Origin: a virus
DNA length: 57,504 nucleotides
Virus record (IMG/VR): IMGVR_UViG_3300027822_000014
Span: 1 to 57,504 of that record
Strand: one strand, 5' to 3'
Below are positions 1 through 57,397 of this stretch, piece by piece (the first letter of the stretch is position 1; every line of letters begins with the position of its first letter). The notes beneath the pieces were generated by a model. It ran no database searches and was not told the origin of the DNA. It worked only from the letters and a program-made list of their open reading frames with translations. The translations under genes and the position numbers were made by a program.

Positions 1-134
1 GTGTCGGGCTGGCCAGCGGTGATCACCCAGGCCACATATAGTGAAACCGACGGCCAAACAGCCAGACGGTGACGTACAGCCGGAACCCCTGCCCGCGCGT
101 GATCAGATGAGCCCGCCCAGGCAGGGTGCAATTC
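1..134. repeat. Terminal direct repeat, left copy
   Basis: These 134 bases recur at 57371-57504. The two copies differ at one position (T at 127, G at 57497). The repeat carries the 3' half of a structured intergenic element (bases 1-27) and ends inside the stop codon of the 133-435 gene. It marks either true terminal redundancy or the overlap of a circular assembly; sequence alone cannot separate these. Confidence 0.95.
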
Positions 135-435: not shown

Positions 436-460
436 GTCTCTCTCCTCTTGTTGTCGTGCA

Positions 461-526
461 GGTGCGCACGGTAGGGCCGCGCCGGACGGTCTAGACCGTG
501 CTCGGCGCGACCCAGCGGTGTGCACC
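461..526 (-). repeat. Structured intergenic element E1 (type B outer stem)
   Basis: On the plus strand: outer arm GGTGCGCAC (461-469), invariant GGTAGG (470-475), a long inner GC hairpin centred on ACGGT-ctag-ACCGT, invariant CCAGCG (512-517), outer arm GTGTGCACC (518-526). The outer arms pair with one G-U. In mRNA sense it lies between the stop of the DUF932 gene and the ribosome site of the 133-435 gene. It belongs to the same family as 1631-1679, 2778-2832, 3266-3313, 3518-3570 and 57341-57397. Confidence 0.85.
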
Positions 527-535
527 TAGTCCAGG

Positions 536-1600
536 TTAGGCAGCTTCAGCGAACGCGTGCCACTGTGAGCGGTCCAGCTCCAGGATTTTACCGCCCAGCT
601 CTTCAAGCTCGGTTGACCGGTCATAGCTCTCAACCGTCTGGGCCGTGGCCGTGACGGCGTTCAACAGCCCGTAGCGTGTCAGGTCACCGTTTTCGATGAG
701 TGACGTCAGCACGCCGTTTTTCTCGGTCTCATTGAGCTGGTGCGATTTGGCCAGCACCTCGACAGCTTCCACCGGGCGCACGATCTTTTCACCCTCGGCA
801 GCTTCGCGGAACTTGTTGACCTGCTGATCAAAGAACGCTTGCTCCAGCGACGCCTTCACAACGTCGCGCATCTTGAGCATGATCGCATTGTCATCGGCCC
901 GCAGGGTTTCGTCCGACAGCATCGCGTAAACGCTCTCTGACGTGTCAGCCTGTGCGCCGACATGAGCCTTGCGGAACTTGGCGTCATTGATCACGCAACC
1001 GTTCAGGCACCAGAGACGATGCACGATCGGTGTCACGCATGCCGCGCCAAAACCGATTTCGGAATTGGTGATCATCACGCCAGCCTCGACAACATCATCC
1101 TTGCGCACATCAGCCCGCAACCGCTCATTGACTGCCTTGATGTACAGCCGCCGCTCGGTCACCTCGCAAGAGGCGATAGCAATGCCCGGCGTGTTCATCA
1201 GGACCGGCAGAATGGCCTCGGCAATGTGTTCGTTGTCAATCCGCTGGTAGCGGTCAGACAGGAATGCACGCGCCTTGCCGTCCAGGGTGCGCACCATGCG
1301 CCGCTCGGCGTTGTTCTCAAACCAGTGATTGACGTTGGTTGCGAGCAACTCCGGCGCGGTCTCGCGCATGCGGTCATAATACGCCGCCGGGATATTGGTG
1401 CGCTGGCCAATCTGGCGGTGTGCAGTCTGCTGGATAGGAAACGTCTGCACCTCACCGGCCACCGGCACCACAAGAGCGGGCGCGGCGTCTGCCGTGGCAC
1501 GCATCTGCAGTTGCTGGGTGTCTGCAACGAAGTCCGCTTTCGCGTCCTGACGGCGCTGGATTTCGTTAGCCAGTTCAACAATCGTTTTTCCATGCTTCAT
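536..1600 (-). CDS. DUF932 family phage/plasmid-like protein
   Basis: The 354-residue protein matches the DUF932 (phage/plasmid-like, TIGR03299-type) pattern by eye. It has an N-terminal region leading to a Q-T-A-H-R-Q-I stretch, a central block with FLSDRYQRIDN near residues 112-123 and a MITNSEIGFGA stretch near 175-185, and a helical C-terminus. Family members are common in phages and plasmids; their biochemical role is not established. The start at 1600 follows a good AGAGGAGAGT ribosome site. The gene is flanked on both sides by structured intergenic elements (1631-1679 upstream, 461-526 downstream). Confidence 0.85.
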   Translation of the reverse strand: MKHGKTIVELANEIQRRQDAKADFVADTQQLQMRATADAAPALVVPVAGEVQTFPIQQTAHRQIGQRTNIPAAYYDRMRETAPELLATNVNHWFENNAERRMVRTLDGKARAFLSDRYQRIDNEHIAEAILPVLMNTPGIAIASCEVTERRLYIKAVNERLRADVRKDDVVEAGVMITNSEIGFGAACVTPIVHRLWCLNGCVINDAKFRKAHVGAQADTSESVYAMLSDETLRADDNAIMLKMRDVVKASLEQAFFDQQVNKFREAAEGEKIVRPVEAVEVLAKSHQLNETEKNGVLTSLIENGDLTRYGLLNAVTATAQTVESYDRSTELEELGGKILELDRSQWHAFAEAA

Positions 1601-1630
1601 ATGTCTTACTCTCCTCTAGGGTTATCGTGC

Positions 1631-1679
1631 GGTGTGCACGGTAGGACCGCACCCAGGGTGCGGCCCAGCGGTGAACACC
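1631..1679 (-). repeat. Structured intergenic element E2 (type B outer stem)
   Basis: Plus-strand order: GGTGTGCAC (1631-1639), GGTAGG (1640-1645), inner hairpin CCGCACC/GGTGCGG (1647-1663), CCAGCG (1665-1670), GTGAACACC (1671-1679). The outer arms pair with one mismatch. The stop codon of the upstream gene abuts the outer arm, and the DUF932 ribosome site lies just beyond. The inner hairpin sequence is shared with E3 although the outer stem is the other type. Confidence 0.85.
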
Positions 1680-1903
1680 TAAGCAAACCAGACAAAGCCA
1701 TTAAAGCGCGGTTCATTGTTGCCGCTGGTGCGCTGGTACGGCGTGTACCGGGCAACACCCCAGCTTGCAGGCTTGTTGCCTTCGTACCATGAATGCGGCA
1801 TGACCTTGTACGTCGCGTCCGCAGGTTCATCACGGTTGCAATGCCCCGCCTTGACGTTGCGCATTGCCTGCCGTGCTTCGTCTCTGGTCTTAAACCCGTA
1901 CAT
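1679..1903 (-). CDS. Hypothetical protein, 74 aa
   Basis: The protein is not recognised. It is rich in aromatic residues (W, Y, F) and basic residues, and ends in FVWFA. The start codon overlaps the end of the 1890-2579 gene by 14 bases, which suggests translational coupling. A GAGGAGAGA-type ribosome site lies just upstream of 1903. The stop codon sits directly against structured element E2. Confidence 0.75.
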   Translation of the reverse strand: MYGFKTRDEARQAMRNVKAGHCNRDEPADATYKVMPHSWYEGNKPASWGVARYTPYQRTSGNNEPRFNGFVWFA

Positions 1904-2579
1904 TTTTCTCTCCTCTTGTGACTGCCGTCACCTTCAGACGCTGTGATCCGTGCGCCGGGAACCCGACAACCGTCTCGCGCTGGCGCTGGCAAAGCTGGCA
2001 CGTGGCACAGCTCACATCGTCACGCGTGACCGCCGGGCAGATGACGATTGTCCGACCTGCCGGTGTTTCGCTGTTGGTCGTCTGGTCAGACGGCAGCACA
2101 GTGACAACCGGCCCGATCTCCAGCGCGGCCAGCTCGTCAGCGTGCGCGGGCGAGTTGGCAGACAGATTAATGGTGAACCCGTCACGGTTCGCCCTAGCGA
2201 TGGCGTCACGCTCGCGCTGTGTGGTCAGAGGCTTGTGCGTGTAGGTGAACCCGCGCGAGCGGCCATTGGCACTCGTCAGCTCGTCAACACACATCACGCC
2301 CAGGTTATCGCCAGTGCCGGGCAGGTCACCTGCCTGATTATGCCGCCAGAGCTGGCCAGCCGGCAGCGCGCGCACCTTGGCCACGAACGTCTGCCAGTCA
2401 CTGCCGACATTCGGCTGTTTCATCATCCGGCCCCACCACAGCGACAGCGGCCCGCCTTGCGCATAGCACCCGGCGTCCAGAAACGGGCAGGACGTCGGGC
2501 AGGTGTCGCGGTGGCTGGTGCTGACCGGTATCGGGCCGACCTTGCGGTTACGTGACACGGGTGTCAGGTGGTACTTCAT
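1890..2579 (-). CDS. Cysteine-motif phage protein (possible metal-binding), 229 aa
   Basis: The N-terminal third contains CPTSCPF followed by GCYAQGG (residues about 27-43), and near the C-terminus there is CATCQLCQ (about 190-200). This pattern occurs in phage hypothetical proteins that resemble the cysteine clusters of radical-SAM-like or other Fe-S proteins. I infer metal binding but cannot name a reaction. The start overlaps the stop of the 2576-2752 gene by four bases (ATGA), and the 3' end overlaps the 1679-1903 gene, so the three form one coupled unit. No signal peptide or membrane helix is visible. Confidence 0.75.
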   Translation of the reverse strand: MKYHLTPVSRNRKVGPIPVSTSHRDTCPTSCPFLDAGCYAQGGPLSLWWGRMMKQPNVGSDWQTFVAKVRALPAGQLWRHNQAGDLPGTGDNLGVMCVDELTSANGRSRGFTYTHKPLTTQRERDAIARANRDGFTINLSANSPAHADELAALEIGPVVTVLPSDQTTNSETPAGRTIVICPAVTRDDVSCATCQLCQRQRETVVGFPAHGSQRLKVTAVTRGEKNVRV

Positions 2580-2752
2580 ACAGCCTCACAATCCAGCGCG
2601 TGACGCTGTGCATGGTGAAACTGCACCATTGCCGCGTCTATCTCGCCCAGTGCAAAGGTCTTGACGTCAAGCCCGTATCGCACATGCAATTGAAAGCTGG
2701 TCTTGATCAGCGCGACATCATTAACGGTGTCGTGCGCCAGAAACTGCAACAT
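2576..2752 (-). CDS. Hypothetical protein, 58 aa
   Basis: A small, mostly hydrophilic protein with several histidines near the C-terminus; not recognised. The start at 2752 is preceded by an AGAGGAGAGAA ribosome site. An upstream extension of the frame would pass through structured element E3 and is rejected. The stop overlaps the next start as ATGA (2576-2579), which is strong evidence that the frame is translated. Confidence 0.7.
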   Translation of the reverse strand: MLQFLAHDTVNDVALIKTSFQLHVRYGLDVKTFALGEIDAAMVQFHHAQRHALDCEAV

Positions 2753-2777
2753 GTGGTTCTCTCCTCTTGTCATGCGG

Positions 2778-2832
2778 GATTGCATGGTAGGGCCGCACCC
2801 AGGATGGCAGGGTGCGGCCCAGCGATGCAATC
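2778..2832 (-). repeat. Structured intergenic element E3 (type A outer stem)
   Basis: Plus-strand order: GATTGCAT (2778-2785), GGTAGG (2786-2791), GCCGCACCC (2792-2800), a short loop, GGGTGCGGC (2810-2818), CCAGCG (2819-2824), ATGCAATC (2825-2832). Both stems are perfect. The upstream gene stops at 2838-2840 and the downstream ribosome site follows a GCATGAC box. Confidence 0.9.
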
Positions 2833-2837
2833 GCGGT

Positions 2838-3239
2838 CTAGTCGTCCGCTTCGTCAGTCTCGGCGCTGTTCAGGTATCCGCCGAATGCCTTCCACGTGAA
2901 ATCGCGGCAATCGATCACGCACACCCCGGCGTCGCCGTGGCTTTCGCTGGCCAGCACGCTGGCCGCTGCCTTGCTGGTCGGGTCCGCTGTGATCTGCAGG
3001 ACTGCAGCTTGCAGGTCGGCGTCCGCATTCCAGATACCCAGCGAAAGATTGCCGCTGATCTGTTCATGCGCAAGGCCAACGAAGCGAGCGGCGGCATACT
3101 GCACATCGCCCTTGCGGTCGGCCATCAGCTTTTCGTGTGCTGCCGCGAGCTGCGGCACCTCGCTGCCTGACCAATGCAGGTAAATCACCGGTGAAACGGT
3201 GGTGTCATCGTGAAAAATTACAAGTGCGCGGTCACCCAT
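2838..3239 (-). CDS. Hypothetical protein, 133 aa
   Basis: The protein is not recognised. It is acidic and soluble-looking, with no membrane segment. The start at 3239 follows AGAGGAGAGACACCC, a strong site. It is flanked by structured elements E4 (upstream) and E3 (downstream), like most genes in this part of the early block. Base composition and codon use look like its neighbours. Confidence 0.75.
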   Translation of the reverse strand: MGDRALVIFHDDTTVSPVIYLHWSGSEVPQLAAAHEKLMADRKGDVQYAAARFVGLAHEQISGNLSLGIWNADADLQAAVLQITADPTSKAAASVLASESHGDAGVCVIDCRDFTWKAFGGYLNSAETDEADD

Positions 3240-3265
3240 GGGTGTCTCTCCTCTAGTTCATGCAG

Positions 3266-3313
3266 GATTGCATGGTAGGCCAGCCGGTTGCCCGGCTGGC
3301 CAGCGATGCAATC
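3266..3313 (-). repeat. Structured intergenic element E4 (type A outer stem)
   Basis: Plus-strand order: GATTGCAT (3266-3273), GGTAGG (3274-3279), CCAGCCGG (3280-3287), loop TTGC, CCGGCTGG (3292-3299), CCAGCG (3300-3305), ATGCAATC (3306-3313). Both stems are perfect. The outer arm overlaps the stop codon of the 3312-3491 gene. The inner CCAGCC/GGCTGG hairpin resembles that of E6. Confidence 0.9.
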
Positions 3314-3491
3314 AGCAGGAATAGATTGACGGATCGACGCAGCGGCAGAACCGCACGGCGTTCAGGTCCACACATTCAAAATGCACCCGGAAGGCGTCCA
3401 GCGCCTCGCGGTCACTGTCGCTGATCTGCTCGGCGCGGTGTGCATCTTCCAGCGCTGCCCATTCGATCAATTCAGCTTGCAAGTCAAACAT
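3312..3491 (-). CDS. Hypothetical small acidic protein, 59 aa
   Basis: The frame starts MFDLQAELIEWAALEDAHR and ends with a cysteine-rich tail (CRC then SIYSC). It is acidic and predicted helical in its first half, with no known family. The start is preceded by AGAGGAGAGAGAACG. The stop codon TGA is embedded in the outer arm of element E4, the same arrangement as at the MTase stop, which supports this reading of the interval between E4 and E5. Confidence 0.7.
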   Translation of the reverse strand: MFDLQAELIEWAALEDAHRAEQISDSDREALDAFRVHFECVDLNAVRFCRCVDPSIYSC

Positions 3492-3517
3492 CGTTCTCTC
3501 TCCTCTAGGTCATGCGG

Positions 3518-3570
3518 GGTTGCATGGTAGGCCAGCGCGCCGTTGCCGGGCGCTGTCCAGCGATGCAATC
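3518..3570 (-). repeat. Structured intergenic element E5 (type A outer stem)
   Basis: Plus-strand order: GGTTGCAT (3518-3525), GGTAGG (3526-3531), CAGCGC (3533-3538), loop, GCGCTG (3550-3555), CCAGCG (3557-3562), ATGCAATC (3563-3570). The outer stem has one G-U-compatible change relative to E3 and E4. The MTase stop codon (3569-3571) overlaps the outer arm. Confidence 0.9.
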
Positions 3571-4252
3571 AAGCGGTGGCCATTGGCGAGCTGCCAACGG
3601 GCGGGAAGTCATAGACGGCGTTCAATGCAGCGCCACCCCATTGCCGTGCCATGGCAGCGGCCATGCCGGGGAAAAAGCGGCTACGCTCGGTTGCACGGTT
3701 CGCGCCGGGCGCTGCCTTGTGGACGCTGTCGCGGGCCGTGGTGCCGTCAAGCTGGCCGGTGGCTGTCAGTTTGGGCAGGTTCTTCAGCCAGAAGCATGTG
3801 CGCTTTTTCTCATTGTCGGCGCTGTCTTCAGACTGGGCGAATTGCCACGGCTGAACGGACTGGGCAAACGGCTGATAGTTGGTGATGCGGGCTTTTGCAT
3901 ACTTGTGCATCACCGGGTTCTCGACAGCGATGCGCGGCACGTCTGCATTCCAGCACGCGGAGAACAACGCAGCGCCTTCGTCAAGGTCGGCCCACATCTC
4001 GCCAAGGGTGCGGCCCGGTGGTGCTTTCTTCAGCCAGCGCACGCCGGAATTGCACAGCCGCGTGCAGGGCGGATGCATGACGGCGAGCAAGTCCCATTGG
4101 CTGAAGGCGAGCACGTTGCGCACATCGTCTTGAATGTGCCGGTTGCTTGGTGTCTCGGATGGTTTCAGGTCGCATGACCACGCGTCATGGCCAAGTGCCA
4201 GAAACGCGTCGCGGACCGTGCCGCTACATTCGCATGCTATCAGGACTTTCAC
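3569..4252 (-). CDS. DNA cytosine methyltransferase-like protein, 227 aa
   Basis: The N-terminus carries a motif-I-like nucleotide-binding stretch (ACECSGTVRDAFLALGHDAW, about residues 6-25) and a second acidic strand. A PPC motif follows (HPPCTRLCNSG, about 60-70), the position of the catalytic cysteine in C5-cytosine methyltransferases, and an ENP motif lies near 113-115. At 227 residues it is shorter than typical C5 enzymes and shows no obvious target-recognition domain, so it may be a minimal enzyme or act on free nucleotides. It is the first gene of the leftward block, directly downstream of promoter 4333-4362. Its ribosome site is AGAGGAGAGACAACC. A role protecting phage DNA is inference. 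Confidence 0.7.
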   Translation of the reverse strand: MKVLIACECSGTVRDAFLALGHDAWSCDLKPSETPSNRHIQDDVRNVLAFSQWDLLAVMHPPCTRLCNSGVRWLKKAPPGRTLGEMWADLDEGAALFSACWNADVPRIAVENPVMHKYAKARITNYQPFAQSVQPWQFAQSEDSADNEKKRTCFWLKNLPKLTATGQLDGTTARDSVHKAAPGANRATERSRFFPGMAAAMARQWGGAALNAVYDFPPVGSSPMATA

Positions 4253-4300
4253 GGTTGTCTCTCCTCTAGGTGCACCAGATGGTGCGATACGGTATCAAAT

Positions 4301-4332
4301 CGGCATGTGCACGGCATGTGCGCCGTGTGCAC
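4301..4332. repeat. Tandem decamer repeats at the leftward promoter (operator-like)
   Basis: CGGCATGTGC occurs at 4301-4310 and again at 4312-4321, an 11-base period (about one helical turn). A diverged third copy ending in GTGTGCAC follows at 4323-4332. They lie just downstream of the -10 box at 4333-4338, around the expected transcript start, where a repressor could block initiation. Confidence 0.55.
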
Positions 4333-4362
4333 ATTATATGCACAAATGCATGTAAAGTGCAA
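4333..4362 (-). promoter_or_regulatory. Leftward early promoter, sigma70-like
   Basis: On the minus strand TTGCAC (4362-4357) is followed after 18 bases by a perfect TATAAT (4338-4333). This is the best sigma70 match in the control region. It points at the MTase gene and, through it, the leftward block. Confidence 0.75.
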
Positions 4363-4533
4363 GAAAAAACGCACGAAGCTATAAGTTGTTGATATTGCTG
4401 GGCTTTTATCCAGGGTGGCAAAATGTGAGCGATGGCGTGATTTCGGGTCCGAAAATGGCCGTTTGCTGTGAGCGTGATTACGGCAGGAATGTGACGAAGT
4501 GTAACGGGTGCCAGTTGTGCACGTCTGGGTTGT

Positions 4534-4915
4534 GCTAGGTCGCACGGATCGTGCAATCTGGCAAAATACATATTCAGTTGTCGGCATGTATAATATGGCT
4601 AAAAAGTGTTGGCTCACACCCTGGGTGCCAGAATGTTCAATGATTTCAGTAAAAATAAGGGTGTGAGCTGTGAGCACTGTTCCAAAAAGTTTGACAAAAT
4701 CCGAAAGGGGGGTTCAGGAATTACTAAATAGTTTTGAACCATGGCTCACAGCTCACACCCCTCACACCCTGTTCGGGTAGCGTCACCGTTTGCGGCACTG
4801 ATATTGTGTGAGTTAACCACATTCCCGTTAACGTGGCGTACGCGCAAAATCGCGCCGGTTTCTGGTCGCCGTGTGGCACGTGGCTAGTTTGCACGGATTT
4901 TGCAATGTAGCAAAA
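4534..4915 (+). repeat. Pair of imperfect 33-base direct repeats
   Basis: Copies at 4534-4566 and 4883-4915 share GCTAG, GCACGGAT, TGCAAT and GCAAAA blocks in the same spacing, with six mismatches. The 17-base inverted repeat lies between them. Paired long repeats in an AT-rich region suggest protein binding, for example an origin or regulator. Confidence 0.65.
4659..4760. repeat. 17-base perfect inverted repeat with extra half-sites
   Basis: GGGTGTGAGCTGTGAGC at 4659-4675 is the exact reverse complement of 4744-4760. Further CTCACACCC copies lie at 4613-4621 and 4761-4769. Four copies of one 9-mer within 160 bases look like an iterated binding site. Confidence 0.75.
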
Positions 4916-5063
4916 CGGTACTCCAATACCACATGACTTGCACGCCGCACGGCGACGCTGTAGGCTCGCGCACGTGGCATATTCCACTGCAGAGCGTGTT
5001 TATCGACGCAACGTGATCATTACGGCCATCGCGGCGGACCTGACGGCCAGCAACACCACGTTT

Positions 5064-5082
5064 GCGCGCGCCCGGCGCGCGC
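5064..5082. other. Strong GC hairpin in the control region
   Basis: Eight-base perfect stem (5064-5071 with 5075-5082) of alternating GC around a 3-base loop. No T-tract follows on either strand, so it is not a classical terminator. Confidence 0.6.
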
Positions 5083-5210
5083 GCCACTAGGAAAAACGTG
5101 CGAAGCTCCATACAGAAAACCATATATAGCGGTGCCCCCTTTTAGAAAGTTCAGTGCCCATTGACCCACACAACAAATACGGATCAAAATCGAAAATAAC
5201 AGCTTCCAGT

Positions 5211-5237
5211 TGCACTGTCGGTGCATCTTAATTTTTT
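5211..5237 (+). terminator. Terminator-like hairpin before the late genes
   Basis: TGCAC-tgtcg-GTGCA (5211-5225) is followed by TCTTAATTTTTT. The stem is short, so it could be a weak terminator or attenuator for leader transcripts reading rightward. A second TGCACG-ttt-CGTGCA hairpin sits at 5269-5283. Confidence 0.4.
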
Positions 5238-5247
5238 CCAAACAGAT

Positions 5248-5276
5248 TTGACATTTTAAGCTTTAAGATGCACGTT
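5248..5276 (+). promoter_or_regulatory. Candidate late promoter (consensus -35 only)
   Basis: A perfect TTGACA lies at 5248-5253, about 50 bases before the terminase start. No good -10 follows: the hexamer at 17-base spacing is CACGTT. It may need an activator, or the true start may use another site such as TTGACC at 5161. Confidence 0.3.
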
Positions 5277-5299
5277 TCGTGCAAAGTAGGATTCAGCTC

Positions 5300-8630: not shown

Positions 8631-10285
8631 GCCAGCAAGGCAAAGACCTCCTGTCGCTATGTGACCGGATGTTCGGGCAAAAGGAAACGTGGGACAGTCT
8701 CTGCCAGGAGATTGGCTACTTTTTTGCCCCGCACAAGGCCGACTTCACCGACGAGATTTATCTCGGCGAGGAGTTCGCCTCGCATATCACCGACCCCACG
8801 CCACTGATCATGGCGCGCGACTTAGGCGACAGTTTTGGCACCATGCTGCGCTCCGAGGAGTGGTTCAAGATCGCCGTTGACGACGATCGGATCATGAACA
8901 AGCAGGAAAACCGCGTTTTTCTGGACTATATGACCGAGGTTACCCGGTCGATGCTGTACGACAAGCGTGGTGGTTTCACCCGCATGGCCAAGGAGCACGA
9001 GCATGACTTCGCCCAGTTCGGCGGCGGGGTCTCGAGCATCAATCTGAACAAGCAATACGACGGGTTCACGTGCCGTAACTGGCACATGCGCGACACCGCC
9101 TTCAACACCAACGACGACAACGAGATCGACCGGCTGGGGCGCAAGATCAACACCACCGCACGCAACTGCGTGACGAAATTCGACGGTGCGCCGCGCGCAA
9201 AAGTGCCGCAACACTTGAAAGAAACCTACGACAACGACGCCGACGCCAAAGTAAAACTGCGACATATTGCCATACCTCGGGATATGTATTCCGAAGAGGT
9301 GCGCAACATTCCCAACGATGCCAAATTCGTGAGCGTTTACCTGTCCGATCAGGGCGAAGTCATCCAGGAACTGCCGGAAATGGAGTTCCCGTACATCGTC
9401 TCACGCTGGCGCACAGTCTCAGGCTGGGGCGCCTACCCCTTCTCGCCGGCCACAATGGCTGCTCTGCCCATGTCTCGGGGCCTCCAGACCATGATGCAGA
9501 CCTTCATCGAGGCTGGCGAGAAGCAGGTCGACCCACCGCTGATTGCTACCAGCGAGGCGATTTCTTCTCCAGTGGACATCACTTCGGGCGGCATCACGTG
9601 GGTCGATGCTGAATACGACGAGCGCATGGGAGCGCCGCTGGTGCCGCTCGAGCTGGGCAAGAACGTCAAGCTCGGCGAGGCCATGCTGATGACCTTCCAC
9701 CGCCTCATGGGCGAGGCCTTATACATTTCGAAGCTGAACATGCCGCAGGCTGCCGGCGAAGGCACTGCCTACGAGATGAGCCAGCTGATCCAGCAGAACA
9801 TCAGGCAGCTGGTGCCGATCTTCGAGCCCGCGCAGGACGAGATCGTGTACCGCTACCTTGACCGCATTGTCACCACGGCCATGCGGCTGGGGGCATATGG
9901 CCCGATCGAGAACATCCCACGCGACCTGCTGGCTCAGAACATCACCTACACCTTCAACAATCCGCTGCAGGCCGAGCGTGATCGCAAGAAAGCGGCCCAG
10001 TTCCAAGAGGCCATGGGCATCGGCAGCGCTGCGCTGCAGCTCGATCCGAGCCTCGCTACCGAGCTGAACCCGATTCAGTGGGTCAGGGACGCCATGCAGG
10101 GCATTGGAGCACCTGCAGACTGGCTGAAGCCTGAAGAAATCGCCATGCAGGAGCGCATGCAGATGGCCGCACAGCAGCAGCAGCAGCAGGAGCAGCAGCA
10201 AATGGCCCAGATGGCCGACACCCTGCAGCGTGGCGGCACCGGCGTGAACCAGATCGCGCAAGCTGAAGCGGCTGGTGCGCAATGA
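8627..10285 (+). CDS. Portal (head-to-tail connecting) protein
   Basis: The 552-residue protein fits the podovirus head-to-tail connector family. It follows the terminases and precedes scaffold and capsid, and contains the WRTVSGWGAYPFSPA stretch (about 259-273) and a helical region with EAGEKQVDPPL, typical of these proteins. It forms the dodecameric ring through which DNA is packaged and ejected. The C-terminus is glutamine-rich (a run of CAG codons near 10174-10200), which suggests a coiled barrel or disordered crown. It starts in an ATGA overlap and ends in another with the next frame. Confidence 0.92.
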   Translation: MSQQGKDLLSLCDRMFGQKETWDSLCQEIGYFFAPHKADFTDEIYLGEEFASHITDPTPLIMARDLGDSFGTMLRSEEWFKIAVDDDRIMNKQENRVFLDYMTEVTRSMLYDKRGGFTRMAKEHEHDFAQFGGGVSSINLNKQYDGFTCRNWHMRDTAFNTNDDNEIDRLGRKINTTARNCVTKFDGAPRAKVPQHLKETYDNDADAKVKLRHIAIPRDMYSEEVRNIPNDAKFVSVYLSDQGEVIQELPEMEFPYIVSRWRTVSGWGAYPFSPATMAALPMSRGLQTMMQTFIEAGEKQVDPPLIATSEAISSPVDITSGGITWVDAEYDERMGAPLVPLELGKNVKLGEAMLMTFHRLMGEALYISKLNMPQAAGEGTAYEMSQLIQQNIRQLVPIFEPAQDEIVYRYLDRIVTTAMRLGAYGPIENIPRDLLAQNITYTFNNPLQAERDRKKAAQFQEAMGIGSAALQLDPSLATELNPIQWVRDAMQGIGAPADWLKPEEIAMQERMQMAAQQQQQQEQQQMAQMADTLQRGGTGVNQIAQAEAAGAQ

Positions 10286-10893: not shown

Positions 10894-11970
10894 ATGACTT
10901 TTCAGCTTCGACGCTGGCCATTTATGCCGGTGTATGCACCACCAGACCCACCTGCCGGTGGTGATCCTCCAGCCGGCGACCCTCCGCCCGCCGGAGATCC
11001 GCCACCTGCAGGCGATCCACCGCCCGCCGGTGACCCACCTCCAGCCGGTGACCCACCTCCAGCCGGTGACCCGCCATCTGCAGGCGACCCGCCACCAGCC
11101 GGTGACCCACCGCCCGGCGGCAGCCTACTCGATGACCCAGGAGATCCGCCCGGCCCCGGCCCTGCGGCGTTCCCGGACGACTGGCGCGAGCAGATGGCTG
11201 GCGACGACACTGCCATGCTGACGCAGCTCAAACGGGTGAAGACCCCTGCTGATCTGGCCCGGCGTGTCGTGGACCTTCAGGCCAAAATATCCAAGGGTGT
11301 CAAGCCTTTGGTGGTGGATGCTGAGAGTTCGGATGAAGATGTGGCCGCATATCGCGAGGCCGTCGATATCCCTGATGAGGTCACAGACTACCGTGAAAAC
11401 ATCAACTTCTCTGAGACCGTTCAGCCGACAGAGCGTGATACCGCCCTGCTGGAATCGTTCACTCAGACGACGCACGACTTCAACATTCCGGCAGAGCAGG
11501 CCCAAGGCATGCTCAACTGGTATGAAGAGACCGTCGAAGCCCAACAGCAAGATCGTGCTGAAGGCGCTGTCAGAGCCCGTGCCGAAACTGCGGATACCCT
11601 GCGTGGTGAATGGGGCGGCGAGTATGCCGGCAATGTCAACGCCGTGAAAACATTTCTCGATTCCCAGCTGGGAGAAGAGGGCGCCACCGGTCTGGTGCAG
11701 AAGCAGTTCACGGACGGGACATTCCTGGGTGACAATGTGCATTTCCTGCGCATGATGGCTCAAGTCGCCACCGACACTCTCGGTCCGAACGCCATCTTCT
11801 CAGGAGACACGCAGCAAATGAGCACTGATCTCAACGCCCGTAAGGACGAATTGCTGAAGCTGCGTGGCGGTGACAAGGACCAGCAGGCCGAATACAAATC
11901 GGACAAAGTCCAATCCGAACTCACCGAGATTTACGCCAAGCTCGATCGTCTGAAGCAGCGAGAGGCTTGA
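10894..11970 (+). CDS. Scaffolding protein with proline-rich tandem repeat
   Basis: Position between the Bbp19-like gene and the capsid, an acidic composition, and a long helical C-terminal half ending in a short basic patch all fit a podovirus capsid assembly scaffold. Residues about 16-73 are a tandem repeat of DPPPAG/DPPSAG units, which is unusual. The following block (PDDWREQMAGDD then LKRVKTPADLARRVVDLQ) is the typical scaffold N-terminal domain. The start has a strong AGGAGA site. Confidence 0.8.
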   Translation: MTFQLRRWPFMPVYAPPDPPAGGDPPAGDPPPAGDPPPAGDPPPAGDPPPAGDPPPAGDPPSAGDPPPAGDPPPGGSLLDDPGDPPGPGPAAFPDDWREQMAGDDTAMLTQLKRVKTPADLARRVVDLQAKISKGVKPLVVDAESSDEDVAAYREAVDIPDEVTDYRENINFSETVQPTERDTALLESFTQTTHDFNIPAEQAQGMLNWYEETVEAQQQDRAEGAVRARAETADTLRGEWGGEYAGNVNAVKTFLDSQLGEEGATGLVQKQFTDGTFLGDNVHFLRMMAQVATDTLGPNAIFSGDTQQMSTDLNARKDELLKLRGGDKDQQAEYKSDKVQSELTEIYAKLDRLKQREA

Positions 11971-38399: not shown

Positions 38400-40751
38400 T
38401 TAGAGCATTTCGATACCATCCGGGCTCCATCGTTTGAACCCGATTCCTCTCCCTGATTTGGCCAACTCGCCCTTGATCATCTCGGCGTCCGGTGAGCCAT
38501 TGTTTAAATCTCTGCGCCAATGATCGCTTCGTCTCAGGGCACGTATTTCTTCTGGTTGCCCGCCCCTTGCGCGCGACCTGAAGCCGTTCTTTTCGCTGCT
38601 TCCCAGCCGGGGCAACGACTGCCACAGCTTGTCCACCAGACGGCGCTGCATGTTGTTGGTTATGCTGTTTTCCAGATGCTCGCATCGTTCGGCTTCCTCC
38701 CATAGATCGAACAGCATGTGCCGGGTGACCAGCTCGCCTTGCGCGCGTTCCTTGATGACGTCGGCGATGATCTGGCCCGGTGCTGCCGAGCGCTCGATCA
38801 TCAGTTTCTTGGCTTCAGTCTCTGGCGGGGTCGAGTGCTTGAACTTTGACACGTCACGCTCGATCAGAAACTTGTACACGGCTGACGCCAGCTCTTCAGG
38901 ATTGTTGCTGTAGGTGTTCCAGAGCGTGGTGTAGTAGTCCTCGCCCAGCTTCTGGGTGGGGTTGGCGTAGACGGCCAACCGCCGCTCGCCCCGAGGCAAG
39001 TTGAAGGCGTCGGCGTGGTTGGAGAACACCAGCAGGTTGAACCACACACGCTCCTGGCGCTTCGATCCGTACTTGGCGTTGATCTGCATCATGGTGACAC
39101 GCGGATCGACCAGCGTCTTGATCCGTTCGTAGGCCTTGAAGTGGGTTTGGTTGTCGCTGTCGTGGGCCTCCTCGATGATCACCACCTGAGAGCCTGACGC
39201 CCAGTCGTTGAACCCGGAAGACGCGCCGTGGCCGGTGAGGTCGCCGATGTCGACAGCCTGGACATTGCCAGACGTCCACACTGCTCGCAACACATCACCG
39301 AGCCACGACCGTCCTACCCCAAACGTATCCTCGGCGACCATAACGACACCGTAGGACCGCTTGCGTGGGTTCTGTAGCTTGAAGGCCAGCCAGTCGAGAA
39401 ACAACTCGTTGTCGGTGTTGTCAGGCAACAGGTAGTTGATGTGTCTGAGGAACACCTCGAGCGATTTCTCCGACGGTTTGGCGTCATGCGCCGGTGGCCG
39501 GTAGGTGTTGATAATCTTCTCCCCGACCTCGTCGATGATGATGCCGGCGTATTTCTTCTCGCCCAGCGTGTGCGGAATGACGTCATAGCGCCGGACCTTG
39601 GGGGTGTTCTCCTCTTCCATAAACGCCGTCTTCACCTTCACGTAGCGCTTCTTGTCCTTGGGCGTCGGCATGTGGATATTCATATGGGCGTAGATGTCGC
39701 TGAACTCATCCAGCGAACAGTCATACAGCCCGCCCCGGGACAGGCTCTGCATGTCGCAAATGCGGCGCCCTTCCTGTATGTAGGTGTAGCGCTGCTGCAG
39801 GAACGGTATCGGATCATAGCGCCGGGCGAACGGCCCGCCGTGCTCTTTCACCCAGCCGAGGAAATCGAAGTCGGCGCAGTGTTCGTGGAAACATTTGAAG
39901 CCACGCTGCATCTGCCACTTGTCACCGCCCCGGCCCAGCGGGGAGTAGCGTGCGGTGTCGTCACCGGTGGTGTGGGAATCACAGTTCGGGCACTCGATGG
40001 TCAGCCACTCGTCGTCGTCATCGATGACCATGGCGTTGTCGAACATCCAGTCGGCCACCGGATCATCGACCTCGAGGTCCAGGACTTCCATCGCCGAGAC
40101 CTTGGTGTGCCGCTCGCGTGCCTTGACCACGCCGATCTCGACATCGAACGCCTGCGCCAGATCATCGACGGTGCCGAACGACAGGTCGGGATTCCACGCA
40201 TGGATCACAGCCTTGAAGTTGTCGCGCCCGGGCTTGGTGTTCACCGAGCCGGGGATGCGCATCAGACGGTTGAACCCTTTGGCACCGCCGTCCGTGTACA
40301 TGGCGTCCGCCATGGTGTCCATTAGCGCAGAGAAGCGCGACAGCTCCTCGGTGGGGTCGATGATGTAGCCCCACTGGAAGTTGCCGGGCGACGTCTCCAG
40401 TATCCATGACGGCTCGACCTTGATGGGCGGGCCTATGAACTCTTTGCCCTTGCGCAGTTTGTAGAAGCACCCGTCCTCGTTGATGTCATCCAGCACCATG
40501 CAGTAGACAGCCTGACAGTCCTCCGAGCGGCGGCGCAGGTAGTCATCCTCGTCGTCCTCGTCAGGCACACGCACGGTGGCGATGTTGAAATATAGTGCAG
40601 CCTTGCCTCGGTTGAGCCAGCTCTCGAACGCGCGGCCCGGGTGCGTGGTGTTGCTGAACCCCTGACCGCGTTGCTTCGCAATGAGAACCGTCTCACCTTC
40701 AGGAACATCTGCGAACACTGTGTCGAGAAATTCTTGGGCATCAACGGTCAT
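38400..40751 (-). CDS. Primase-helicase
   Basis: The N-terminal region (about 90-215) matches RepB-like archaeo-eukaryotic primase style (VLDDINEDG, ILETSPGNFQWGY, RLMRIPGSVNTKPGRDNF). A cysteine/histidine cluster follows (CPNCDSH ... CFHEHC, about 253-292). The C-terminal half is a D5/DUF5906-like helicase: VAEDTFGVGRSWLGD (Walker A, about 478-492), VVIIEEAHD (Walker B, about 531-539), NLLVFSNHADAF (sensor). Walker A has arginine where lysine is usual. It unwinds and primes DNA for the family A polymerase. Start 40751 is set by GGAGG. Confidence 0.85.
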   Translation of the reverse strand: MTVDAQEFLDTVFADVPEGETVLIAKQRGQGFSNTTHPGRAFESWLNRGKAALYFNIATVRVPDEDDEDDYLRRRSEDCQAVYCMVLDDINEDGCFYKLRKGKEFIGPPIKVEPSWILETSPGNFQWGYIIDPTEELSRFSALMDTMADAMYTDGGAKGFNRLMRIPGSVNTKPGRDNFKAVIHAWNPDLSFGTVDDLAQAFDVEIGVVKARERHTKVSAMEVLDLEVDDPVADWMFDNAMVIDDDDEWLTIECPNCDSHTTGDDTARYSPLGRGGDKWQMQRGFKCFHEHCADFDFLGWVKEHGGPFARRYDPIPFLQQRYTYIQEGRRICDMQSLSRGGLYDCSLDEFSDIYAHMNIHMPTPKDKKRYVKVKTAFMEEENTPKVRRYDVIPHTLGEKKYAGIIIDEVGEKIINTYRPPAHDAKPSEKSLEVFLRHINYLLPDNTDNELFLDWLAFKLQNPRKRSYGVVMVAEDTFGVGRSWLGDVLRAVWTSGNVQAVDIGDLTGHGASSGFNDWASGSQVVIIEEAHDSDNQTHFKAYERIKTLVDPRVTMMQINAKYGSKRQERVWFNLLVFSNHADAFNLPRGERRLAVYANPTQKLGEDYYTTLWNTYSNNPEELASAVYKFLIERDVSKFKHSTPPETEAKKLMIERSAAPGQIIADVIKERAQGELVTRHMLFDLWEEAERCEHLENSITNNMQRRLVDKLWQSLPRLGSSEKNGFRSRARGGQPEEIRALRRSDHWRRDLNNGSPDAEMIKGELAKSGRGIGFKRWSPDGIEML

Positions 40752-48798: not shown

Positions 48799-49455
48799 TC
48801 AGAAGTGGAAGATCAGTGCAGCCTCGACACCGTGAGACCATGTGCCGTCCACAGTCACACCCTTGTCCCCGGTTTCGTTGATGTGCTGCAACCGATAGCC
48901 GCCCCGAAAAGCGAGCCGATCAGTCAGCGGCACAGTCACGCCGGCCAGCACCTGCTGGGCAAACGCCATGTCATCGCCACTGAAAGCCAGACCACCAATC
49001 ACAGCGTCTGTGTCCACGAATGCTAACCCGACACCTGCGCCGACATACGGGGTCAGCGCGAAGGGGCCTATCGGCACCTGGATCGCATGAACATCGTACA
49101 GGACGTTGAGCATCAGCGTGGTGGCCGTGGTCTCAGAGGTAGACACCGTCGTTGCGGTGTCCGTGGCAGCTCGTGTTGCCTCGATTTCGGCACGGATGGC
49201 GTCAGTGAGTTTCACACCGACAAATGCACCGAACCTGATGCCGGGATCAACGGTCACATCATATGTGGTTCCGGCGAACTCGGCTTCCGTGTCGTGTGTG
49301 AACACACCACCGATCAGTGCCCCGCCATAGAACATAGAAGGCGCGGTGGTCACCTGTGTCTTCGGCGCCACCATGTCAGCAGCAGACGCCACGCTCATGG
49401 TGGCGAGGGCAAGTCCAGCCGCGACGGCGATAGACATCAAAGCTCTCTTAATCAT
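48799..49455 (-). CDS. Outer-membrane beta-barrel protein with signal peptide
   Basis: The signal peptide MIKRALMSIAVAAGLALATM to SASA (cleavage about residue 26) is clear. The mature 190 residues alternate hydrophobic and polar residues in about eight strands (GALIGGVFTHDTEAEF; IRFGAFVGVKLTDAIRAEIE; LTPYVGAGVGLAFVD; LAFRGGYRLQHI) and end in ALIFHF, a terminal phenylalanine as required for barrel insertion. It resembles Omp25/Omp31-type proteins of alphaproteobacteria. Made early in infection, it could mask or replace the receptor (superinfection exclusion). That function is inference. ATG 49455 follows AGAGGAGAT. Confidence 0.8.
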   Translation of the reverse strand: MIKRALMSIAVAAGLALATMSVASAADMVAPKTQVTTAPSMFYGGALIGGVFTHDTEAEFAGTTYDVTVDPGIRFGAFVGVKLTDAIRAEIEATRAATDTATTVSTSETTATTLMLNVLYDVHAIQVPIGPFALTPYVGAGVGLAFVDTDAVIGGLAFSGDDMAFAQQVLAGVTVPLTDRLAFRGGYRLQHINETGDKGVTVDGTWSHGVEAALIFHF

Positions 49456-49534
49456 TGGTAATCTCCTCTCTGTGCGCCTTGGCGCGTTGCGATATTGCTG
49501 TGGTAACATCGCTCAAGCTGAGCGAATTTGCAAA

Positions 49535-55261: not shown

Positions 55262-55324
55262 GGCCCGGTCCTTTCTGGGTATGGGCGGGGAAAACAGGGG
55301 GCCGGAACCCCCCGCTCAGGATCG

Positions 55325-56215
55325 TCAGGCTGACCAATGCAGATAGAACTGCTCCGGCGTGTCATGCTTCAGGACGAACTCGCACATCTCCGCAGTGATG
55401 CGCAGGCTGTCCACGTAGGACTTCAGCCGGTCATCCGAGCCACGGCACACCAGATAGGTGCACGGCTTGGAACCCGCGCCGCCAACCAGTGACGCCATGA
55501 TGTTGTCCGAGCCACCGTGGATGATGCCGACAAGCTGCAGCGGATCGTTGATGTAGAACTCGCCGATGCCGTTGCTGTAGCCGCCACCGCCGAACGGCTC
55601 GCTGTCTTTGTTCTTTTCCAGCTCGTCCTTGAATAGCTTCAGCGCGTCCTCTTTCGACGAGCATCTGGCAGCCACCTCGGCAGGGTCCGAGAACATATTG
55701 ACCGACGCCTCCATGACGATCAGGTCGCCGCCGTTCGCTTCGGCGTTGGCTTCCAGCTCGCGGGCAAGCTCCAGCGCCCGCATGTGCGACTGATTCCAGT
55801 CAGGCTGGAACCGGTATTCCTCGTCGCGCTCGCGGTCGAAAATCCAGTACAGCCCGTCCTTGCCGGTGGCGATCTTGGCCACGTGGTTGACCCCGCCCTC
55901 GTTGTAGCTGGAACGCAGATAGTTCAGCTTGAACATATGCTCGGGGTCGATCTCGGAATCCGGCACCACGGCCTCGCGCTGGATCGTGTCCGGGATAGAA
56001 TGCCAGCCGTACTCGCCTTTGACCATGCCCAGCTTGTCACCCAGCTCGGCAGACTGCTTGCGCGCTTCGTCCTTTTCGGCGTCGCTGCACTTGTCGTAGC
56101 CCTTGCCGCCGGTGATCTTGTCCCAGATAGCGGTGGTGCCTTTGTCGTAGGCGTCCTCCATCTCGTCGGCTTTGGCCACGTCGAAATACTGATACAGATG
56201 TACGTCTAAACCCAT
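55325..56215 (-). CDS. Conserved phage hypothetical protein, 296 aa
   Basis: Starts MGLDVHLYQYFDV, an opening seen in a family of phage proteins of unknown role. Acidic, soluble, with a helix-rich centre (MRALELARELEANAEANGG) and several glycines near 200-215. No enzyme motif is visible. GGAGAGAAAATC precedes ATG 56215. A structured leader (E7) and a two-codon minigene lie just upstream. Confidence 0.7.
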   Translation of the reverse strand: MGLDVHLYQYFDVAKADEMEDAYDKGTTAIWDKITGGKGYDKCSDAEKDEARKQSAELGDKLGMVKGEYGWHSIPDTIQREAVVPDSEIDPEHMFKLNYLRSSYNEGGVNHVAKIATGKDGLYWIFDRERDEEYRFQPDWNQSHMRALELARELEANAEANGGDLIVMEASVNMFSDPAEVAARCSSKEDALKLFKDELEKNKDSEPFGGGGYSNGIGEFYINDPLQLVGIIHGGSDNIMASLVGGAGSKPCTYLVCRGSDDRLKSYVDSLRITAEMCEFVLKHDTPEQFYLHWSA

Positions 56216-56246
56216 GATTTTCTCTCCTGGTTAGTGGGGTCATGCT

Positions 56247-56296
56247 GGCGCATGGAAACGGGGCAGGGGTGGGGCCTGCCCGTAACGATGCGTCAT
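56247..56296 (-). repeat. Divergent structured intergenic element E7
   Basis: Plus-strand order: GGCGCATGG, AAAC, GGGCAGG (56261-56267), loop, CCTGCCC (56275-56281), GTAA, CGATGCGT. It keeps the CATGG...CGATG frame, inner GC hairpin and downstream GCATGAC box of elements E3-E5 but has lost the GGTAGG and CCAGCG hexamers. An 18-residue frame (56240-56296) overlaps it. Confidence 0.55.
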
Positions 56297-56305
56297 CACC
56301 TTGGG

Positions 56306-56314
56306 TTAGCGCAT
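56306..56314 (-). CDS. Two-codon minigene (ATG CGC TAA)
   Basis: TAGAGGAGAGAAAC, one of the best ribosome sites in the genome, is followed by ATG CGC TAA. Minigenes of this form in lambda (bar region) sequester peptidyl-tRNA. Here it could be a leader peptide, a remnant of a deleted gene, or a landing site. It is the first translated unit after the promoter at 56356-56384. Confidence 0.45.
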   Translation of the reverse strand: MR

Positions 56315-56355
56315 GTTTCTCTCCTCTAAAAACGTTACATTTGCAGTATCAACTA

Positions 56356-56720: not shown

Positions 56721-56935
56721 GCGTCCTCGCTTTCATCGATTTTCCAGTGGTGCGCCGGGAACGATACCCAGCTATGGGTTAAGTCGAGCGGCAGGTCGGT
56801 GACATTATCGAACTGCGCGCGCAGGTGACCGCCCAGGCCAGATGGCTGGAGCAAGGCGGTCTGCCCTTTGAGTTTGATGGTCCGGCCATGCCGGGCCACC
56901 ACGGTTTCGTTGCCGGTGTACGTGCCGTGCATCAT
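56717..56935 (-). CDS. Hypothetical protein, 72 aa
   Basis: Beta-rich with several G and T (MMHGTYTGNETVVARHGR; LQPSGLGGHLRAQFD) and HSWVSFPAHHW near the end. Overlaps neighbours on both sides by four bases, so co-translated. Function unknown. Confidence 0.65.
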   Translation of the reverse strand: MMHGTYTGNETVVARHGRTIKLKGQTALLQPSGLGGHLRAQFDNVTDLPLDLTHSWVSFPAHHWKIDESEDA

Positions 56936-57315
56936 TCGCTGGCCTTCGCTTTGTCATCACCGATCCACAGCCACGCCTGCACATAGGCACCGCCGTCAGC
57001 ACTCGGCGACACCAAAGCCTCGCCGTCGATTTCGATCTTGCCATCCTCCGCCCAGTGTTCGCGCGCAGCGTCGCGGTAGTTGTCGTCCGCGATGGCATCG
57101 TCATCGATCAGGTCCAGCTCTTGCCAGTCGTGGCTCAGGCTCAGCTCTGTTATCCGAACCCCTTCGTCCATCTTGCTGTTGTACCCGGTCAGGAAATTGT
57201 CGTCGGGCTCGCAGCAGTCCAGCACCTCGCTGGCCAGCTTGCGGGCGGCGTCTTCATTCACAGCCGTCACCCTGACCACAGCGTTCAGCCTGCAGTCGAA
57301 TCCAAATTGTTTCAT
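56932..57315 (-). CDS. Hypothetical acidic protein, 127 aa
   Basis: The start FGFDCRLNAVVRVTAVNEDAA looks like a beta-hairpin and helix; the remainder is very acidic (DLIDDDAIADDN). No family recognised. AGAGGAGAGACGC precedes ATG 57315, and structured element E6 lies just upstream. On a circular map the 133-435 gene is next upstream. Confidence 0.7.
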   Translation of the reverse strand: MKQFGFDCRLNAVVRVTAVNEDAARKLASEVLDCCEPDDNFLTGYNSKMDEGVRITELSLSHDWQELDLIDDDAIADDNYRDAAREHWAEDGKIEIDGEALVSPSADGGAYVQAWLWIGDDKAKASE

Positions 57316-57340
57316 GCGTCTCTCCTCTTGTTGTCATGCG

Positions 57341-57397
57341 GGTGTGCACGGTAGGCCAGCCTGACACGTTGTGTCGGGCTGGCCAGCGGTGATCACC
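57341..57397 (-). repeat. Structured intergenic element E6 (type B outer stem)
   Basis: Plus-strand order: GGTGTGCAC (57341-57349), GGTAGG (57350-57355), CCAGCCTGACAC (57356-57367), GTT loop, GTGTCGGGCTGG (57371-57382), CCAGCG (57383-57388), GTGATCACC (57389-57397). The inner stem pairs along 12 positions with one mismatch. Its second half is also found at 1-27 because the element spans the repeat boundary. Confidence 0.85.

Follow-up and report, generated by a model that had tools for sequence, protein, structure and literature searches.

Short untranslated gaps between the early genes of this phage carry a repeated pair of hexamers, and the question raised by the locus is whether the repeat acts as RNA or as DNA and what it may do at the gene boundaries where it lies. 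The window, that is the whole stretch of DNA analysed, is a single virus record from IMG/VR, 57,504 bases long, and a 134-base overlap between its ends implies that the genome is a circle or is circularly permuted, with a length of about 57,370 bp. Its gene content is that of a tailed phage that has podovirus-like head-tail adaptor and tail proteins, and it also encodes a family A DNA polymerase, a primase, a helicase and a terminase. Among 50,697 phage records, none was a near DNA match to the first 8 kb. An outer-membrane beta-barrel gene (OMP_b-brl, Surface_Ag_2) is located amid the phage genes at 48799-49509 on the minus strand, and an intragenic array of 18-bp repeats at 10930-11138 codes for a proline-rich run.

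Copies of the element and their place in the operon

The pattern GGTAGG-N(10-40)-CCAGCG matched the window seven times where 0.21 matches were expected, and the maximum in 100 shuffles was two. One match, at 9404-9437 on the minus strand, was rejected as a chance match. The other six are the copies E1 to E6 of the preliminary description, which had placed all of them correctly. The genes flanking the element run leftwards, so that the mRNA corresponds to the minus strand, and each copy lies on that strand in the leader of a gene. E1 (461-526, or 453..526 with its GCACGAC box; 71.1 bits) precedes the gene at 133-435, E2 (1631-1679, or 1624..1679 with its GCACGAT box; 68.8 bits) precedes the DUF932 gene at 536-1600, and E3 (2778-2832, or 2769..2833 with its GCATGAC box; 80.6 bits) precedes the gene at 2576-2752. 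E4 (3266-3313, or 3257..3314 with its GCATGAA box; 71.8 bits) leads the gene at 2838-3239, E5 (3518-3570, or 3509..3571 with its GCATGAC box; 71.1 bits) the gene at 3312-3491, and E6 (57341-57397, or 57333..57397 with its GCATGAC box; 77.8 bits) the gene at 56932-57315, with E6 also continuing into the terminal overlap at window positions 1-27. A divergent seventh copy, E7, occupies 56239..56296 with its GCATGAC box, again on the minus strand, in the leader of the gene at 55325-56215. It was detected blind and in the correct orientation by a covariance model whose sole input was E1-E6 (20.9 bits, E 0.003).

In the mRNA sense, every copy is ordered as 5' arm, CGCTGG, inner hairpin, CCTACC, 3' arm, GCAYGAC box, ribosome site and start codon. 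The box had been described as GCAYGAC throughout and is exact in five of the seven copies, the exceptions being the boxes of E2 and E4. The ribosome site AGAGGAGAGA, which had been counted as part of the element, is instead the general site of this phage, found in 11 copies that are all on the minus strand; only five of these accompany E1-E6, and E2 has AGAGGAGAGT in its place. The distance from the stem base to the start codon is usually 25 nt (25, 30, 24, 25, 25, 25 and 31 nt in E1 to E7). It had also been proposed that each copy begins at or inside a stop codon, which holds for E2, E4 and E5, where the element overlaps the upstream stop codon, but not for E1, E3, E6 and E7, which are separated from the upstream stop by 9, 4, 105 and 91 nt, respectively. 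From E2 to E5 the element occupies nearly the entire intergenic gap. At 56300-56327 on the minus strand a perfect AGAGGAGAGA is followed by a frame of two codons (ATG CGC TAA), which sits 9 nt ahead of the 5' arm of E7; the remaining eleven AGAGGAGAG sites each precede a frame of at least 58 codons.

The first gene of the leftward operon is DNA methyltransferase-like (phrog_757; 3569..4252, minus strand), and an intrinsic-terminator-like hairpin (55297..55313, minus strand) follows directly past the last element-bearing gene, at 55325-56215. Between these two genes, with gene calls chosen from the table of open reading frames and ribosome sites used as a guide, there are 11 gene junctions. All seven junctions with an untranslated gap hold one element each, and none of the four at which the genes overlap holds one. 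A covariance-model search of the window found no element in the operons beyond the terminator-like hairpin. We infer that the element-bearing genes are cotranscribed. A possible promoter of the leftward operon, unflagged by the consensus scan, is present at 4325-4362 on the minus strand (TTGCAC, 18 nt, TATAAT). The divergent control region at 4534-5289 contains repeated operator-like palindromes such as TTGCACGGATTTTGCAA and ATGCACGTTTCGTGCAA, and positions 4612-4770 hold repeated CTCACACCC and GGGTGTGAG words together with a 44-nt inverted repeat, which may be an origin or a regulatory site.

The element as a conserved RNA structure

The element is a conserved RNA structure and not a DNA palindrome. 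Minimum free energy folding gave the same topology for all eight sequences, namely E1-E7 and a copy from a related phage (G001, see below): an outer stem, a C.C mismatch, a lone G-C pair, a 2x2 loop and an inner stem, with folding z scores of -2.1 to -5.8. The GG of CGCTGG and the CC of CCTACC are bases of the inner stem, so that the true loop is 5'-CGCU / UACC-3'. Among E1-E6, standard pairs fill 90.8% of the pair cells and nine of the 20 pairs show change on both sides; the covariation score of 0.457 was not reached in any of 500 shuffles (0.156, sd 0.040), and covariation was lost on sliding the partner strand. With E7 and the related copy included, double compensatory change is seen in 16 of the 20 pairs and 145 of the 160 cells are paired, a level of pairing that was not equalled in 10,220 permutations of whole 3' arms. 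These eight-sequence counts come from a hand alignment that leaves out the loops and one bulged base of E7; a MAFFT alignment of all eight sequences put E7 and the related copy in the wrong register.

While nearly all other pairs vary, a core of CAYCGYY / YWCCRUG is conserved, comprising C-G and A-U pairs from the outer stem, both the C.C mismatch and the lone G-C pair, and loop positions rich in pyrimidines. The loop itself is CGCU/UACC in six copies, CGUU/UUCC in E7 and CGCC/CACC in the related phage. Pairing of RTGC in the 3' arm with GCAY in the downstream box is possible in all of E1-E6, and 90 of 500 shuffles scored as high. The outer stem comes in two versions and inner hairpins are shuffled between them, just as the preliminary description had it: E2 and E3 have one inner hairpin in common, as do E4 and E6, and within each pair the outer stems differ. 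This suggests that the mosaic copies arose by recombination between copies at the fixed loop core. The proposal that leaders between early genes share a conserved RNA fold is thus borne out by strong covariation within the window together with the copy in a related genome, and the orientation check proposed with it gave one direction relative to transcription for every copy.

The related phage was the one relative returned by the first polymerase search of IMG/VR contigs, with a DNA polymerase 68% identical to that of the present phage. Its gene at 38649-39053 is the orthologue of the E4 gene (protein 46% identical) and is preceded by a hairpin of the same build, 26 nt from stem to start. Of the 20 pairs compared between E4 and this hairpin, nine are the same, nine differ on both sides and two are unpaired; no pair differs on just one side. 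The hairpin was the top model match in a 20-kb stretch (L330), though a weak one (14.1 bits, E 0.057). A strict structural descriptor matched only three times in 3.4 Mb of other DNA, and no ribosome site and start codon followed any of these matches, so a chance match at this site is very unlikely. The related copy apparently occupies the leader of an operon's first gene and not a gap between genes, and the orthologue of the E7 gene in that genome has no stable leader hairpin (z -0.19).

Among the virus contigs listed by the searches, element carriers so far are two genomes, the present phage and this relative. A third genome has an orthologue of the E4 gene and lacks the element, and searching 79 other polymerase relatives with the model yielded no convincing match, although the sensitivity was limited, as the same search also missed the copy in the related phage. 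When IMG/VR and the GTDB species genomes were scanned with loose motifs, only chance matches appeared, and a stricter IMG/VR pattern that included the ribosome site gave six matches, of which only the one in the related phage folds. In Rfam no family matched at its curated gathering score; the only match was a weak one between E1 and a microRNA hairpin, which scored 29.7 bits where the cut-off is 66. In an unrelated contig (L046, 8580-8975), an array of many GCGCACGGTAGG repeats was observed whose fold differs from that of the element.

Possible roles at gene boundaries

We predict, at a probability of roughly 0.45, that the element is an mRNA processing site at gene boundaries. This reading is favoured because the early mRNA of phage T7 is the closest working parallel (see below). 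The structured RNA would fill the untranslated gaps of one polycistronic phage mRNA and mark the boundaries at which an endonuclease cuts it. After a cut at or close to the internal loop, the upstream message would end in a hairpin that protects its 3' end, and the downstream message would have a short leader with a free ribosome site. Each unit of element, ribosome site and one gene or coupled gene group would then be both an independent message and a movable cassette. In the folds of all copies the ribosome site lies outside the stems of the element and is not masked. A U run after the hairpin, or a terminator call, was found at none of the elements, so they are not intrinsic terminators, and no promoter-like site was found within any of them. 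Host RNase III would be the most likely endonuclease. RNase III has little sequence requirement. The fixing of the core while almost every other pair changes raises doubt over RNase III, and suggests that CAYCGYY / YWCCRUG has a specific reader. The symmetry of the loop, which is asymmetric in T7 R1.1, and the apparent position of the related copy ahead of the first gene of its operon also count against processing.

The main rival to mRNA processing is an RNA regulon, in which the fixed internal loop would be the putative site for one phage or host protein that jointly controls the translation or stability of the seven messages. We consider this possible, with a clearly smaller chance of being right. 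Such a regulon might be new and sequence-specific, with one protein reading the fixed 4x4 loop at every open junction, although this too is doubtful; a similarly tentative corollary is that the rest of the hairpin drifts and that each gene cassette has its own control handle. Between the two genomes only the loop core and the pairs that flank it are conserved, the stems being otherwise replaced, and all copies are in one operon at a near-fixed distance from the start codon, which is consistent with such a protein. However, no candidate RNA-binding protein was found among the proteins scanned, and the exposed ribosome site does not indicate repression of the classic masking type.

Both the near-constant 25 nt between stem and start and the position of the ribosome site clear of the stems would also suit a passive insulating or stabilising role, in which a hairpin that borders the initiating ribosome on its 5' side keeps the leader open and protects message ends and needs no dedicated reader. 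In silico deletion of E4 lowered the accessibility of the ribosome site from 0.41 to 0.07, but deletion of the other copies caused little change or higher accessibility, and a passive stem leaves the fixed loop core unexplained. Such a role is unlikely.

Least probable is a DNA element, that is an operator, promoter or recombination site with palindromic arms acting as double-stranded DNA: the outer arms are indeed inverted repeats, the inner/outer mosaic between copies suggests recombination and other short inverted repeats with TGCA half-sites occur in the divergent control region at 4250-5290, but the distance between the arms varies from 31 to 48 bp, the two hexamers do not mirror each other, a search for sigma-70-like promoters found none inside the elements, the stem pairs covary with all copies in one orientation, and the palindromes of the control region are 17 bp long and have another sequence. 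Of the roles listed in the preliminary description, those at the mRNA level hence remain and those at the DNA level are disfavoured.

The element represents a structured RNA family not described before, and the proof of its fold is unusually clear. The paralogous copies in one genome and the orthologous copy in another amount to natural compensatory mutants, and they offer a direct route to asking what reads the fixed loop core. The arrangement also suggests a way in which phages may exchange genes as self-contained message cassettes.

Comparison with known systems

The nearest parallel proposed previously was with the start-associated sequences of cluster K mycobacteriophages, and it fails on RNA pairing. 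The likeness is that ESAS/SAS are inverted repeats ahead of the start codons of several non-structural genes, and similar repeats occur in Microbacterium phages of clusters EF and EG. However, the changes in the ESAS arms break RNA pairing, which the arms do not support (PMC3203893), whereas the arms of the present element covary. ESAS also carry SigA-like -35 and -10 hexamers within the repeat, and more recently the sites have been interpreted as SigA-like promoters (PMC11373665), whereas the elements here contain no promoter-like site. Finally, a 13-bp SAS, GGGATAGGAGCCC, stands at the start site in cluster K, where the present phage has its ribosome site AGAGGAGAGA. The 17-bp repeats of cluster O mycobacteriophages are likewise a multi-copy inverted repeat within one phage; their arms are invariant, they have no meaningful orientation, and about a third are intragenic and not tied to starts (PMC4351075).

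The likeness to T7 is one of anatomy and placement, and no sequence similarity is claimed. Folded with one script, the T7 early gaps 0.4/0.5, 0.7/1, 1/1.1 and 1.2/1.3 gave hairpins of 44-66 nt with internal loops, and these are the gaps that we take to hold the known RNase III sites. The gap 0.6/0.7 gave only a weak, irregular fold, and T7 genes that overlap or abut have no gap to house a hairpin. The present element, too, folds into an irregular hairpin, about 60 nt long and interrupted by an internal loop; it is found in untranslated gaps between early genes that are presumably cotranscribed, and is absent where genes overlap. The difference lies in the loop: R1.1, a 60-nt hairpin between genes 1.0 and 1.1 of T7, has an asymmetric internal loop of 4/5 nt (PMC6121014), whereas the 4x4 loop core of the element is symmetric and nearly invariant. 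Gene-boundary RNA elements, best known from T7 early mRNA, are here seen in an unrelated phage in a form with a fixed loop core.
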